Positions 25,452 to 52,185 of a stretch of DNA of 64,000 nt are shown here, in pieces (the first letter of the stretch is position 1; each line of letters opens with the position of its first letter). The DNA is from Cohaesibacter gelatinilyticus (GTDB taxonomy: Bacteria; Pseudomonadota; Alphaproteobacteria; Rhizobiales; Cohaesibacteraceae). The notes beneath the pieces are model-generated. The model was not told where the DNA came from, did no database searches, and saw nothing but the letters and a program-made list of their open reading frames with translations. The stretch lies in contig NZ_OBEL01000007.1 of the NCBI RefSeq assembly GCF_900215605.1, forward strand, positions 62,001-126,000. Reading direction: 5' to 3'. The position numbers were made by a program, and so were the translations under genes.

Positions 25452-25457
25452 GTTTTG

Positions 25458-25512
25458 ACGCGTTCCTGAAAAATTACAGACTTTTCGGACAAGAACTCGT
25501 TTCAAAACAAAA
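25458..25512 (+). repeat. Element A copy 2
   Basis: Begins GCGTTCCTGAAAA, carries the ACTTTTCGGACAAGAACTCG half, then TTTCAAAAC. Plus orientation. It occupies the leader between the putative operator and the start of the following membrane-protein gene. Confidence 0.8.
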
Positions 25513-25533
25513 TCATTTGAATGAGTGATTGTA

Positions 25534-26148
25534 ATGCATGATTTGAACCAGGCCCTGGCAGACATTGCCGACATACGCAGCCAGATGGCCGCTGGCACAA
25601 TATTTCAGGGATTTGGGCCAGCCGTCATCGCCATTTCGGGCTTTCTGGCGCTTGGTACCTTATCAGGGCAATTGCTCTGGCCCGAATTATTGGCATCATC
25701 AGAGCAGACCATGCTGTTCCTTTGGGTGACGGTGGCCATTCTGTCCTTCCTGATGATTGCCTATGAAACCCGCGCCCGATCTCGGCGCATACATGGCGGC
25801 CTAGCGGATGAGATGGTGCAGAATATGCTATTGCAATTCATGCCTATCGGCTTTGCCGGAACCGCCATTGGCGCAGTCATTCTGCTTTTCACACCATCCG
25901 ATCTCTGGCTGTTGCCTGGCCTGTGGCAAATACTGGTCGCCCTTGGGCTGTTTGCCTCACAAAAGGCTCTGCCACAGCAAATCATGTTTGCCGCAGCCTG
26001 GTATTTCCTCGCTGGCGTCGTTGTGCTGATCATCGGAGCCAAAAGCGGCGCCGCAGATTCCCTGATGATGGGTATTCCCTTCATCATCGGCCAGTTTCTG
26101 CTTGCAGGGCTTCTTCATTTTGCTCAAGGAACCATCGAGAATGACTGA
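25534..26148 (+). CDS. Membrane protein, uncharacterised
   Basis: 204 residues from the ATG at 25534; a GTG three codons earlier is possible and neither has a clear ribosome binding site. It has an N-terminal amphipathic stretch (ALADIADIRSQMAAGTIFQGFGP) and about six membrane helices. Family not recognised. Its stop overlaps the next gene's start by 8 bases, so it and the regulator are co-translated. Confidence 0.75.
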   Translation: MHDLNQALADIADIRSQMAAGTIFQGFGPAVIAISGFLALGTLSGQLLWPELLASSEQTMLFLWVTVAILSFLMIAYETRARSRRIHGGLADEMVQNMLLQFMPIGFAGTAIGAVILLFTPSDLWLLPGLWQILVALGLFASQKALPQQIMFAAAWYFLAGVVVLIIGAKSGAADSLMMGIPFIIGQFLLAGLLHFAQGTIEND

Positions 26149-30483: not shown

Positions 30484-30648
30484 ATGAGGATTTTTGTGAT
30501 CTGACGCGGAAATGTGATGCCGAGGATCGCAACATAGGTGGAGCTAAAGCGCGTTCCCGAAAAGTTGCAGACTTTTCGCATAAGAATTCGCTCAAAAAAT
30601 GAGAACCGGAGGCGAGCATTGACAAAGTCAGAGCGCAAAAAGACCATG
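30484..30648 (+). repeat. Element D copy 1, interrupted by an A element
   Basis: Left block 30484-30537 (starts ATGAGGATTTTTGTGATCTG) and right block 30600-30648 (starts TGAGAACCGGAGGCGAGC) match the copy at 55375-55487 almost base for base. The 62-bp interval between them here is replaced by 10 bp in the other copy, and most of it is an A element. The right block carries the GGAGG and TTG that start the MerR gene. Confidence 0.85.
30547..30600 (+). repeat. Element A copy 3, inside element D
   Basis: AAGCGCGTTCCCGAAAAGT...ACTTTTCGCATAAGAATTCG, a close match to the consensus half of element A, plus orientation. It lacks the second hairpin seen in the riboswitch copy. It accounts for most of the length difference between the two D copies. 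Confidence 0.8.
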
Positions 30649-32575: not shown

Positions 32576-33634
32576 CTATCTCGAGCGGCCAAGCAGCCAG
32601 ATGAAGAAGAGGCCGCCGATGAAGCCGGTGACGATGCCGATGGGCATGTCTTCCGGGGCCATGATGATGCGGGCAACGGTATCGGCCCAGACAAGAAAGA
32701 TAGCTCCGAACAAAGCAGACAGCGGCAACACCCGGCGATAATCACCGCCCACAATGGCGCGCACGATGTGAGGGACCATCAATCCCACAAAGCCGATCAT
32801 ACCGGAAAATGCCACCATCACGCCGGTGATCAGCGCCCCGACCACAAAGATGATCAGACGGAAGCGCTCCACCTCAATGCCGAGGGTGGTAGCGGTCTCA
32901 TCGCCAATGGTCATGGCATTGAGCTTAGCTGACTGCATACCCAACCAGATGCCACACAGTATCAGGATGATCAGCGGATAGACCAGATGCGACCATTGCG
33001 CCAAACCGAGCCCACCCAGCATCCAGAAGATCACCGTATGGGTGGCCCGTGGATCACCGAGAAAGATCAGGATATTGGCACAGGCCATGATGACAAAGGA
33101 GACAGCAACACCGGTGAGAACCAATCGGTCTGCACTGGTGGAGCTGGCAAATTTGGCGATCAGCAATACCAAAAGCGTCGCCAGCAATGCCCCGCCAAAG
33201 GCAAGCAAAGGCACGGTCAGAAGCCCTAGAAACAACCCGGTATGAAGCAAAGCCAGGATAGCCCCGAAGGCTCCACCGGATGAGATGCCCAATAGATGCG
33301 GATCGGCCAGCGGGTTGCGGGTCACGGCCTGCAAACAGGCACCGACCATCGCAAGTCCGGCCCCGACCATGGCGGCTAGAAGCGCCCGTGGGAAACGAAT
33401 ATCCCAGACAATGGCCTCTCGCCCTTTGGACCAGAATGGCTCAACCAGCTCGGGGAAGGCGCGACCGGCAAGTATGCTCCATACCGTACCAGTGGGGATT
33501 GACACGGCCCCGACGCTGATTGAGACCGAAACCGAGGCAATCAACAGCAAACCACCCAGCAACAGGGACAATTTCAGCCGGGACTGGTAAGTCGATTTAT
33601 GGTGCGGAAAACCCCTCTCAACTGCCTCGGTCAT
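32576..33634 (-). CDS. ABC transporter permease, FecCD/BtuC family
   Basis: 352 residues with about ten helices and FecCD blocks (RFPRALLAAMVGAGLAMVGACLQAVTRNPLADPHLLGISSGGAFGAI, GMIGFVGLMVPHIVRAIVGGDYRRVLPLSALFGAIFLVWADTVAR). It forms the membrane channel for vitamin B12 or iron chelates. Last gene of the cobalamin-riboswitch operon, 3 bases after the binding-protein gene. The riboswitch favours B12 or a related cobalt compound as cargo. Confidence 0.9.
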   Translation of the reverse strand: MTEAVERGFPHHKSTYQSRLKLSLLLGGLLLIASVSVSISVGAVSIPTGTVWSILAGRAFPELVEPFWSKGREAIVWDIRFPRALLAAMVGAGLAMVGACLQAVTRNPLADPHLLGISSGGAFGAILALLHTGLFLGLLTVPLLAFGGALLATLLVLLIAKFASSTSADRLVLTGVAVSFVIMACANILIFLGDPRATHTVIFWMLGGLGLAQWSHLVYPLIILILCGIWLGMQSAKLNAMTIGDETATTLGIEVERFRLIIFVVGALITGVMVAFSGMIGFVGLMVPHIVRAIVGGDYRRVLPLSALFGAIFLVWADTVARIIMAPEDMPIGIVTGFIGGLFFIWLLGRSR

Positions 33635-33637
33635 TCC

Positions 33638-34576
33638 TTAAGCTCCCCGGAAAGCCTTGGCCAATTTCTTGATGGCCTTGATGTTGCGAGGGCCGGGCGT
33701 TGCTTCCACATAATCCAGAACAACAAAGCGATCATTCTTCACCGCATCGAGATTGGCAAAGGCAGGATTGTTCATCATATAGGCGCGCTTTTCTTCGGCG
33801 GTGACCTTGCCGTAATTGACGATGACGATCATTTCCGGGTTGGCCTCGACAACCTTTTCCCAGCCGACCTTGGTCCAGCTCTTCTCCACATCATCCATGA
33901 CATTGCGGCCACCTGCGGCCTCGATCATGGCTGTCGGCATGGCGTATTTGCCTGCAGTGAATGGCGTATCTTCACCACTGTCATAGACAAAGACACGCAA
34001 TGGGGTGTCAGCGGTTTTCAGCTTGGATTTGAACTCGTCCAATTCAGCCTTGTAGCCATCAACCAGTTTCTGCGCCTTGTCTTCGACATCAAAGATACGG
34101 CCCAAATTCAGCAGATCATTATACATATCCTGCATGGAAACCTTGGCTTTCTCGCCAATATGGATGCAGCTTTCGGTCAACTCGTAAACCTTGATGCCAA
34201 ATGGCTCCAGGGTTTCTGGCGTCACTTCACCGCCAACCTTCATGCCGTAATTCCAGCCAGCAAAATAGAAGTCGGCATCGGCACCGATCAGCACTTCCTT
34301 GGTTGGATATTTTGGGGACAGCTCAGGTAGTTCCTTGATGCCTTCACGCATTTCTTCATCCAGTGTTTTCCAGCCGGAAATACCGGTGAAACCAGCCATG
34401 CGGTCGCGCAGGCCAAGCACCAGCATCATCTCGGTCAGATTGACATCGTTGGAAATGGCGCGCTGTGGCGGAGTATCAAAGCTCACAGAGCGATCACAGG
34501 ACTGAACCTTGGTCTCGGCCATGGCCGCACCGGACAGAAGGGTGAGCGCAAGCGCAGTTGTAGCAAGAAGTTTCAT
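33638..34576 (-). CDS. ABC transporter periplasmic binding protein (BtuF/FepB type)
   Basis: 312 residues with a signal peptide (MKLLATTALALTLLSGAAMA) and a helical-backbone binding-protein fold (RAISNDVNLTEMMLVLGLRDRMAG...EVLIGADADFYFAGWNYGM...VVEANPEMIVIVNYG). Presents cobalamin or a metal chelate to the permease. Separated from the upstream ATPase gene by 116 bp that holds an A element and a hairpin. Confidence 0.88.
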   Translation of the reverse strand: MKLLATTALALTLLSGAAMAETKVQSCDRSVSFDTPPQRAISNDVNLTEMMLVLGLRDRMAGFTGISGWKTLDEEMREGIKELPELSPKYPTKEVLIGADADFYFAGWNYGMKVGGEVTPETLEPFGIKVYELTESCIHIGEKAKVSMQDMYNDLLNLGRIFDVEDKAQKLVDGYKAELDEFKSKLKTADTPLRVFVYDSGEDTPFTAGKYAMPTAMIEAAGGRNVMDDVEKSWTKVGWEKVVEANPEMIVIVNYGKVTAEEKRAYMMNNPAFANLDAVKNDRFVVLDYVEATPGPRNIKAIKKLAKAFRGA

Positions 34577-34593
34577 GGGGTGTTCCTTTTATA

Positions 34594-34647
34594 ACGTGTT
34601 CCCGAAAAGTTGAAGCACTTTTCGGACAAGAATTCGTTTCAAAACAA
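34594..34647 (+). repeat. Element A copy 4
   Basis: CGTGTTCCCGAAAAGT, a loop, CACTTTTCGGACAAGAATTCG, then TTTCAAAAC. Plus orientation, inside the ABC operon between the ATPase and binding-protein genes. Confidence 0.82.
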
Positions 34648-34648
34648 A

Positions 34649-34699
34649 GTCTTAATTCGCTCCATACGATCTCCGAGATCGCAAGAAGCGAATTAAGAA
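34649..34699 (-). promoter_or_regulatory. Hairpin at the 3' end of the ABC ATPase gene
   Basis: CTTAATTCGCT pairs with AGCGAATTAAG across an inner CGATCTC/GAGATCG stem, giving a long two-part hairpin that begins at the ATPase stop codon. No T-run follows. It may tune expression between the ATPase and the downstream binding-protein gene. Confidence 0.6.
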
Positions 34700-35475
34700 G
34701 GCAGATGAAAAGTGAAATGAGAACGGTCACTGACGCTCAGATGCTCAAGGCGCGCCGAGACCGAGAAAGAAGAGGAGACATGCTGTTCTGACAGCACCTC
34801 AAACGGGTCGCCATAGGCCAGCATTTGCCCGTCCTTCAGCAACAGGACGCTATCGCACACCTCAGCTGCCATATTCAGATCATGCAAACTGGTGACGATG
34901 GTCAGATCCAGCTCCCGGATCAGCGAGACAATTTCCAGCTGATGGCGGATATCCAGATGGTTGGTTGGCTCATCCAGTATGAGAAGCTGTGGCCGTTGGG
35001 CCAGAGCCCGCGCCACCATCACTCGTTGCCGCTCACCACCAGAAAGCGAGCCGAACAAACGATCCTGAAACCCTTGCAAACCCATCTGCTGCAATGAACC
35101 ATCAATGATGTCACTGTCCCGCGCACCGGACGAGGCAAAGCCACGCTGATGCGGCGTGCGGCCAAGGGCAACAATCTCACGCACGGTCAGCGCAAAGTCT
35201 GTTGGCTGTTCCTGCAACACAGCTGCCACCCGGCGGGCCGCCTGCCTTGGCCGCAGCGACCAAAGATCCTCGCCACCGACATAGATATTGCCGGACAGCG
35301 GACGATTATAGCGATAGAGCAAACGCAAAAGGGTGGATTTGCCCGCGCCATTGGCCCCGATAATGCCAAGGGTCTTGCCTGCATCCAACGAGAAAGAAAG
35401 CGGATGCAGCACATAGGGAGCGCGTGAGCCGGGAGCCCAGCTCACATTCTCCACCACCAGATCAGAGGAACTCAT
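34693..35475 (-). CDS. ABC transporter ATPase, FecE/BtuD family
   Basis: 260 residues. Walker A GANGAGKSTLL, Q-loop VAAVLQEQPTDF, signature LSGGERQRVMVARALAQ, Walker B LLILDEPTNHLD and H-loop TSLHDLNMA are all intact. It powers the FecCD-type permease. Its ATG overlaps the stop of the DUF1636-like gene by 4 bases. Confidence 0.92.
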   Translation of the reverse strand: MSSSDLVVENVSWAPGSRAPYVLHPLSFSLDAGKTLGIIGANGAGKSTLLRLLYRYNRPLSGNIYVGGEDLWSLRPRQAARRVAAVLQEQPTDFALTVREIVALGRTPHQRGFASSGARDSDIIDGSLQQMGLQGFQDRLFGSLSGGERQRVMVARALAQRPQLLILDEPTNHLDIRHQLEIVSLIRELDLTIVTSLHDLNMAAEVCDSVLLLKDGQMLAYGDPFEVLSEQHVSSSFSVSARLEHLSVSDRSHFTFHLPS

Positions 35476-35864
35476 GCAGCCAATACTCTATTCAGCACAT
35501 CCTGGGTTTCCAGAGCCAGCATGAAGGCAGGCACTTCCACCGGCCGGGGGGGGCCTTTGGCACTGTTCGGCGAGCCCAGAATTTGCCGGGCCAGACCAAG
35601 CAATTCATCCAGATCCTGATCCATGTCGACATCGCCAAAGACAAAGGTCTCGTCCTTGCTGCAATGCCAGCCAATCGTGCAGGGCTGATCGCTGCATCTG
35701 ATTTCAGCAAAGCCCGAAGTCGAAAAATCATCACCGACAATGGCATGAGCCTTGCCGACCGACTGCGCCAATGTCAGCGCAAAAACATAGCTGGCCTCGC
35801 ATACCTTACCGGTATGTCGACAGGGAATGGAAGATGAGAATGGGTAAGAAATATGCCGGTCCAT
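35472..35864 (-). CDS. DUF1636-like small metal-binding protein
   Basis: 130 residues. C-terminal half (DETFVFGDVDMDQDLDELLGLARQILGSP) matches the DUF1636 pattern; cysteines occur in PCRHTGKVC and RCSDQPCTIGWHC. Such proteins are often found with cobalamin-regulated genes and may bind metal. GGAGG five bases before the ATG at 35864 supports the start. First clear gene of the riboswitch operon. Family assignment is from memory of the pattern. Confidence 0.68.
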   Translation of the reverse strand: MDRHISYPFSSSIPCRHTGKVCEASYVFALTLAQSVGKAHAIVGDDFSTSGFAEIRCSDQPCTIGWHCSKDETFVFGDVDMDQDLDELLGLARQILGSPNSAKGPPRPVEVPAFMLALETQDVLNRVLAA

Positions 35865-35941
35865 AACGCCCTCCGCGCAAATGCGGGGGCGGAAGCAAGA
35901 CCGATCATGTCAAAGGCACATATATGGGCCAGATTTGGCAT
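35774..35941 (-). CDS. Possible leader ORF between riboswitch and DUF1636-like gene
   Basis: A 55-codon frame (MPNLAHICAFDMIGLASAP...) begins with ATG after an AAGGAG site 7 bases upstream, just downstream of the riboswitch core, and overlaps the next gene in another frame. The strong binding site suggests it is translated and could couple riboswitch control to the next gene. The protein resembles nothing known, so it may be a leader peptide or chance. Confidence 0.35.
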   Translation of the reverse strand: MPNLAHICAFDMIGLASAPAFARRALWTGIFLTHSHLPFPVDIPVRYARPAMFLR

Positions 35942-35985
35942 CTTCAGGCTCCTTTCCGAGGCACCCCGCCCGGGTTGAGTGAACA

Positions 35986-36290
35986 AGAAGATGGCAGGTC
36001 TCCTGACTTGCGGGTCAACGCTCAACCAGCCTTCCCGGATCTTCACTGACGATTGGGTCAGCATCCAGTGGTCTTCTGGTCTTGCTCTCCGCCTACAGTT
36101 GCGGGGGCAGTCACGGAATTGGCGTCTACAGCGCGTCCCCGAAAAGTTGCAGTACTTTTCGGACAAGGCCTCGCGATAGAATAAAATTCAAAGCATTTCT
36201 TATGATTCAGCAATCGTCAAAAGTGCTTTGGATCTACACCGCACCGTGTTCCCTTTTCATCCAGAGGCCCGCTTGGCCTCTTAGAACCAT
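35986..36290 (-). ncRNA. Cobalamin riboswitch, interrupted by an inserted element
   Basis: On the minus strand the 5' part has GATGAAAAGGGAACACGGTG (36244-36263). After the insertion come CCGTGACTGCCCCCGCAACT, the AGACCACTGGATG-type block, and the B12 box AAGTCAGGAGACCTGCCATC near 35990-36009. CACGG and CCGTG form a riboswitch stem. Removing 36131-36238 joins GGTGCGG to TGTAGACGCCAATT and gives a normal compact aptamer. It controls the downstream DUF1636-like and ABC genes, normally off when B12 is plentiful. Confidence 0.9.
36131..36238. mobile_element. Element A copy 5 (full-length), inserted in the riboswitch
   Basis: A 102-bp unit (36131-36232) followed by TCTACA, which also occurs immediately before it (36125-36130) as a probable 6-bp target duplication. 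It has two hairpins: CGAAAAGT/ACTTTTCG, then CAAAGCATTT paired with AAAAGTGCTTTG. No coding capacity; a MITE- or REP-like element that would need outside enzymes to move. Confidence 0.8.
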
Positions 36291-52066: not shown

Positions 52067-52169
52067 CCAAACCACTGCACATGATCACTGAATCAAGGAC
52101 AGCGCTTTCGTTCTTTATTTTGACGCGAATTCTTGTCCGAAAAGTCTGCAACTTTTCTTCGAATGCGCG
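52067..52169 (-). repeat. Element A copy 6 (near full-length)
   Basis: Minus orientation. It has the first hairpin (CCGAAAAGTCTGCAACTTTTC) plus the AAAGCGCT...TGATTCAG second half seen in the riboswitch copy, about 103 bp in total. It fills the leader directly upstream of the IclR gene. Confidence 0.75.
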
Positions 52170-52185
52170 GTAGGAGCAATCACGC

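Follow-up and report, generated by a model that had tools for sequence, protein, structure and literature searches.

A dispersed two-hairpin repeat occupies the L4 loop of a cobalamin riboswitch that retains its conserved core

A cobalamin (B12) riboswitch in the window, as we call the whole 64,000-nt stretch of DNA analyzed here, contains one copy of a dispersed, MITE-like repeat within the loop of its P4 hairpin (L4). The insertion, the identity of the insert as a dispersed repeat and the conservation of the aptamer core are well supported, and we assign a probability of roughly 0.72 to the reading that a TA-targeting MITE-like repeat has been tolerated as an extra L4 arm of a riboswitch that is predicted to be still working. 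The repeat is of an ordinary kind and its place is unusual. An initial annotation had described a mobile-type element inserted in this riboswitch and flanked by a 6-bp target duplication, TCTACA; the dispersed repeat, the accessory loop and the foldable core withstood our analysis, and the target duplication did not.

Results

The extra sequence lies wholly within L4

Analysis with cmscan placed a Cobalamin riboswitch (RF00174) at positions 36306-35976 on the minus strand, as a single, complete match to model positions 1-189 that scored 105.3 bits against a gathering score of 31.5. The Rfam alignment treats the extra bases as a single insertion, which separates model positions 58 and 59 and lies entirely inside L4, an accessory hairpin loop. 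These results agree with the earlier description of extra sequence in a variable hairpin loop between the conserved blocks of a standard riboswitch; they also place both aptamer halves at this locus. The Cobalamin match alone reached its gathering score in the Rfam search of the window, and no known Rfam family matched the repeat at that level.

To express the length of L4 in other riboswitches, we used 81 distinct riboswitch sequences that were found by pattern, excluding one sequence (L151) without a P4 box. From GGTG to the CCCCGC box, L4 measured 136 nt in the window riboswitch vs 28-46 nt in the 80 others, and exactly 35 nt in 50 of the 81. Long sequences are thus absent from this position in all 80 of the other riboswitches measured. 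At 331 nt, the window riboswitch was also the longest among the matches listed in 18 genus genomes (102 matches by per-genome counts); a riboswitch of 264 nt was found in the same genome, and the remaining ones listed for the genus did not exceed 230 nt.

The genome that contains the window has three further Cobalamin riboswitches. One of these, L052 (G000:C7:171463-171726), carries a palindrome of ~49 nt inserted further 3' in the aptamer. This palindrome is not the repeat described here, and a genome search with it matched only itself.

Removal of the insert and one TCTACA leaves 28 nt in L4, and the nearest relatives have 35 nt. The same type of L4 arm, GTGTAGCC...GGCGC, was present in 22 of the 80 other riboswitches, which come from several alphaproteobacterial genera (L035, L050, L052, L109, L110 and L113, among others), and L057 has a variant in which GAGTAGCC replaces GTGTAGCC. 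In L052, from the same genome as the window, this arm is empty. The recurrence of the arm across genera suggests that it may have a role of its own. Furthermore, its apical GCC...GGC was present in all 22 of the printed sequences, and its loss in the window riboswitch may therefore be costly.

The aptamer core is conserved and can form in silico with the insert present

We aligned the window riboswitch with 99 others, dropping L151, and determined which residues are retained at the 64 columns that are at least 95% conserved in those 99. The window riboswitch kept 63 of the 64. Among the 99 others, 86 had no mismatch at these columns, 10 had one, 2 had two and 1 had four. The only changed column of the window riboswitch is a G beside the insertion that has become A, and this A pairs with U in the predicted base of the arm. 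Inspection of the sequence downstream of the aptamer revealed GCGGGG (35964..35969, minus strand), a candidate L13 kissing-loop partner of the L5 sequence CCCCGC, and the seven printed relatives have RCGGGG at the candidate L13 position.

The earlier suggestion that the riboswitch may still fold was borne out in silico. With the insert present, the 5' strand of P4 (CACGG, 36244..36248, minus strand) was predicted to pair with its 3' strand (CCGTG, 36112..36116) with probabilities of 0.97-0.98. The base of the L4 arm was predicted to form between GGTGT (36236..36240) and ACGCC (36121..36125), both on the minus strand, with probabilities of 0.97, 0.97, 0.97, 0.96 and 0.65; in relatives with this type of arm, GCGCC or GCGCT stands in place of ACGCC. 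The GGUGC and AAUUCC sequences that flank the arm agree with the Rfam model. When the whole RNA was folded, ~33 pairs were expected within the repeat and ~3 between the repeat and other RNA, and the summed pair probabilities of the core differed by 1.93 of 65.76 between the filled RNA and an RNA with joined flanks. Minimum free energies were mildly below those of shuffled sequences (z of -1.9 and -1.7). Searches of the folded RNA by string for P3 and P5 returned 0, and the predicted fold thus does not vouch for these two helices. Altogether, the folding models support a repeat that would fold mostly by itself within the riboswitch RNA, which speaks for insulation of the repeat and not for function of the riboswitch.

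The insert belongs to a family of dispersed repeats

The initial annotation called the insert a mobile-type element, and its copy number agrees with this. A BLAST search with positions 36110-36250 yielded 41 matches in the same genome, the query included. We aligned 20 near-full-length copies, picked by eye from 40 loci, and built from them a covariance model, R1, which matched this genome at least 130 times at E<=0.01 (150 of 1396 candidates scored). The riboswitch copy, one of the 20 from which the model was built, matched R1 at 36125-36231 with 101.9 bits. From this match and the boundaries of 42 copies, the element extends over 36126..36231 (minus strand) from the first to the last family-conserved base, YTA...TAR. 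The consensus of its termini in the 42 copies is YTAAAGC...GCTNTAR, with the first Y in 38 and the last R in 40 of them and mixed bases beyond. A length of ~106 nt, the lack of coding capacity and many dispersed copies are as expected of an IS630-type MITE.

The 20 aligned copies share a consensus fold in which a linker connects two hairpins. Of its 29 pairs, 11 showed double changes with pairing preserved in at least one sequence. In the riboswitch copy, hairpin 1 (CAAAGCA...TGCTTTG, 36189..36230, minus strand) is backed by covariation and has pair probabilities of 0.98-1.0, and hairpin 2 (36131..36174, minus strand), which was taken from the alignment fold, has a CCGAAAAGT...ACTTTTCGG core with pair probabilities of 0.94-1.0. 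The loop of hairpin 1 contains GAATC (36204-36208, minus strand), a GANTC site. An exact GANTC was found in 19 of 44 aligned rows, with two rows repeating copies already counted, and in the window copy. The total of 20 GANTC sites does not stand out from shuffled sequences, whose mean is 16.9, but 19 of the 20 lie in this one loop column.

Elsewhere in the genus, R1 had 92 matches in one genome (G007), 12 in a fragmented one (G006) and 0-6 in each of the remaining fifteen. In a draw of 150 genomes from the order, with at most 25 candidates scored per genome and stricter filters, 41 genomes, this one included, had a match at E<=1e-6, and these represented 28 of 89 genera. The window itself has five R1 matches above 45 bits, the riboswitch copy and four more, besides weaker ones; they include matches at 52067-52174 (plus strand, 57.4 bits), 25452-25546 (minus strand, 47.4 bits) and 30543-30615 (minus strand, 47.1 bits). 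We also observed a second, composite type of repeat, in which the right hairpin is common to both types, the left part is different and the shared tail is longer (L015, L016, L019, L062, L065, L072, L074 and L079). The repeats thus look modular.

In a rough estimate that used 130 copies, four riboswitches of ~215 nt and an assumed 0.6 Mb of intergenic DNA, ~0.2 copies were expected inside a riboswitch by chance. A single riboswitch insertion therefore requires no special targeting.

A second copy of the repeat lies in the operon downstream

The riboswitch is followed on the same strand by four open reading frames, all of them open: gene 1 (35472..35864, 130 aa), which has no Pfam or NCBIfam match and has relatives in 7 of the 17 other genus genomes; an ABC importer ATPase, of the corrinoid/siderophore/haem kind (34693..35475, PF00005; the listed NCBIfam importer models were all below their cut-offs); a periplasmic substrate-binding protein (33638..34576, PF01497); and a FecCD/BtuC-type permease (32576..33634, PF01032). 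Between the aptamer and gene 1, we observed a 55-codon ORF (35774-35941, minus strand) that is preceded by AAGGAG and overlaps the start of gene 1; the seven printed relatives have ATG at the position where it starts. A CCGCA..TGCGGAGG-like hairpin may mask the ribosome site of gene 1.

A second copy of the repeat is located between the ATPase and binding-protein genes of this operon (34589..34696, minus strand; R1 match 34588-34696, 96.5 bits). The stop codon of the ATPase gene lies at the start of this copy, which fills the gap before the binding-protein gene, and relatives have empty sites there. We compared this junction in 28 relatives, 25 from the 80 loci and three from the genus. The window reads TCT-TAA, the repeat and then TAA-AAGGA, vs TCT-TGA-AAGGA in L060 and TCG-TGA-AAGGA in L057; L114 reads GAC-TAA-AGGAAC, L059 has no stop codon there, and many other relatives differ in sequence at this point. 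Among the rows of relatives that align with the window here, the duplication amounts to TA or TAA and no more.

The TCTACA pair is explained without a target duplication

TCTACA is present at both edges of the insert (36125-36130 and 36233-36238), as the initial annotation had noticed. On the 5' side, GTGTAG already occurs in the empty riboswitches of the same arm type (22 of 80), which makes the TGTAG on this side ancestral. The TGTAG at the 3' edge belongs to the repeat, as a variant of its GCTNTAR end; CTGTAG ends 4 of the 42 copies, and TGTAG is absent from the 25 nt to the left of the other three. The pair is thus a coincidence of an ancestral stretch with an element end. A scan of the flanks of the 42 copies, which covered boundary shifts and lengths of 2-6 and 8-10 with 60 shuffles each, did not reveal any direct repeat that clearly exceeded shuffled pairings; the best z was 2.8, from a total of 1040 combinations. 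Based on these flanks, the empty riboswitches and the TA or TAA duplicated at the second copy, the interpretation of TCTACA as a target duplication was rejected.

The 3' junction of the riboswitch insert, TAG-ACGCC, fits insertion at TA into the paralogue loop TAG-GCGCC with one change. At the 5' junction, GTGTAG-ATC-CA vs GTGTAGCCATTA in the paralogue, several changes are needed and a clean TA insertion is not obtained; the 5' TA of the repeat reads CA in the riboswitch copy.

Candidate sources of mobility

The DDE_3 domain of IS630 transposases (PF13358) had no match in the genome that contains the window, and an IS630 partner inside this genome was accordingly rejected. In the genus, PF13358 was found in 3 of 18 genomes, with 63 matches in G008, 2 in G007 and 1 in G006; G008 has one R1 match. 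One group of G008 IS630 elements (L191, L205 and L206) ends in TA-AAGC...GCTT-TA, and L210 of G007 may end in TA-GAGC...GCTC-TA, with 3 mismatches in 14, as one of three candidate end pairs from a single copy. The ends of a second G008 group (L202-L204) and of another G007 copy (L209) read TACCA and do not resemble the repeat. Compared with the best of the four AAGC/GAGC IS ends, the repeat agrees in its 5' consensus at 7 of the 9 positions that follow TA (P of 0.005 by shuffling) and at its 3' end at 6 of 9 (P of 0.03), but the ends were picked after the likeness had been seen, and both P values are therefore too good. These terminal similarities would link the repeat to IS630 elements, weakly to moderately, by way of IS ends from other species of the genus.

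Mobilization of the repeat by a RAYT, in the manner of REP elements, was also considered and rejected. The genome has five Y1_Tnp matches, and R1 matches were absent (E<=1) from the five loci around them, so that repeats flanking a Y1 transposase gene were not found.

Discussion

The riboswitch described here shares with other RF00174 members a complete model match, the conserved core, a candidate L13 partner and importer genes downstream; it differs from them in an L4 of 136 nt that holds a dispersed repeat. We propose that a small, CIR-like, non-autonomous repeat with two linked hairpins, belonging to the TA-targeting MITEs in kind, has entered the apical loop of the L4 hairpin in a Cobalamin riboswitch that precedes an operon for a B12-type ABC importer, perhaps mobilized by an IS630-type transposase. 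The riboswitch has retained P4, an arm base (GGUGU/ACGCC) and almost every other conserved residue of the aptamer. In the RNA, two mostly self-contained repeat hairpins would cap a lengthened L4 arm, an arrangement that would leave room for the four-way-junction core and the kissing loop. Continued B12 switching is likely, and we infer that it would follow the usual route of ligand binding, L5-L13 docking and control of translation start.

An unlikely alternative is that the insertion broke the riboswitch, leaving the operon unregulated and the aptamer a decaying relic. In support of this, the L4 arm has lost its apical part, L4 takes part in an L4-L6 T-loop contact that organizes the aptamer core (PMC10907184), and the score of 105.3 bits is below the 114.5-122 bits of the seven orthologues. 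However, 63 of the 64 conserved columns are intact, although the riboswitch copy shares no more than 78% identity with its best near-full-length match in the genome, a hint that the insertion is old. P4 and the arm base are also kept in the predicted fold, and the downstream ORFs are open. P6 peripheries are known to differ between riboswitches (PMC9600662).

It is quite unlikely that the mobile repeat has become a structural part of a working metabolite riboswitch, with a branched arm of transposon origin standing in for the apical L4 hairpin, which many relatives keep, and tuning the switch or mRNA stability. Similarly, we consider it very doubtful that the repeat was adopted and not merely tolerated, with its hairpins acting in the switch or the mRNA as an RNase III entry, through stability or by a CcrM-dependent effect. 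Both hairpins are intact in the riboswitch copy, a second copy lies within the same operon and a GANTC site is present in the loop of hairpin 1, all of which would suit adoption; however, hairpins and GANTC column alike belong to the family as a whole, and we found no special mark on the riboswitch copy. Finally, transposition with a 6-bp TCTACA target duplication, for which the hexamer on both sides speaks, is extremely improbable: one TGTAG is the element end and the other ancestral, no direct repeat stands out in the 42 copies and the duplication at the second copy is limited to TA or TAA.

Among known repeats, the element resembles CIR (CcrM-associated intergenic) repeats and, less surely, IS630-type MITEs; we do not claim that it is a CIR. 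As described in PMC2229807, CIRs are alphaproteobacterial repeats of ~110 bp with two arms and a linker, TA termini and GANTC at the loop of one arm, and the window family is alike in its ~110 bp, two arms with a linker and TA termini, by comparison with this description. It differs in that an exact GANTC is limited to 19 of its 44 aligned rows and that the same source reports no intragenic CIRs. RUP is likewise a non-coding repeat, of 107 bp, with a TA target and IS630-like ends (PMC2229807 and PMC3049150); it is pneumococcal, and the genome studied here has no IS630 transposase match. RIME, the Sm-repeats, the AB and C motifs and Br-REP of rhizobia (PMC2573895 and PMC5082802) are likewise dispersed structured repeats of related bacteria.

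Of the printed precedents that we found for repeats within riboswitch leaders, the nearest comes from pneumococcus, where a BOX element, likewise a small repeat, lies between two T-box riboswitches in a leader RNA read by the authors as still working (PMC3049150). BOX lies between two riboswitches, whereas the window repeat lies inside one aptamer loop. A search of the open-licence literature, which takes in few subscription papers, turned up no case of a repeat lodged within the aptamer of a riboswitch.

The peripheral arms are the most variable parts of structured RNAs, and the origin of a new arm can seldom be observed. In this riboswitch the arm has an identifiable source, a dispersed repeat with many known copies, and the empty site is known from relatives. 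The locus allows a direct test of the tolerance for foreign RNA in an aptamer loop, and it bears on the question of whether self-folding repeats are tolerated in regulatory RNAs through self-insulation. If adoption of the repeat proved true, riboswitch peripheries could grow by the capture of mobile repeats.
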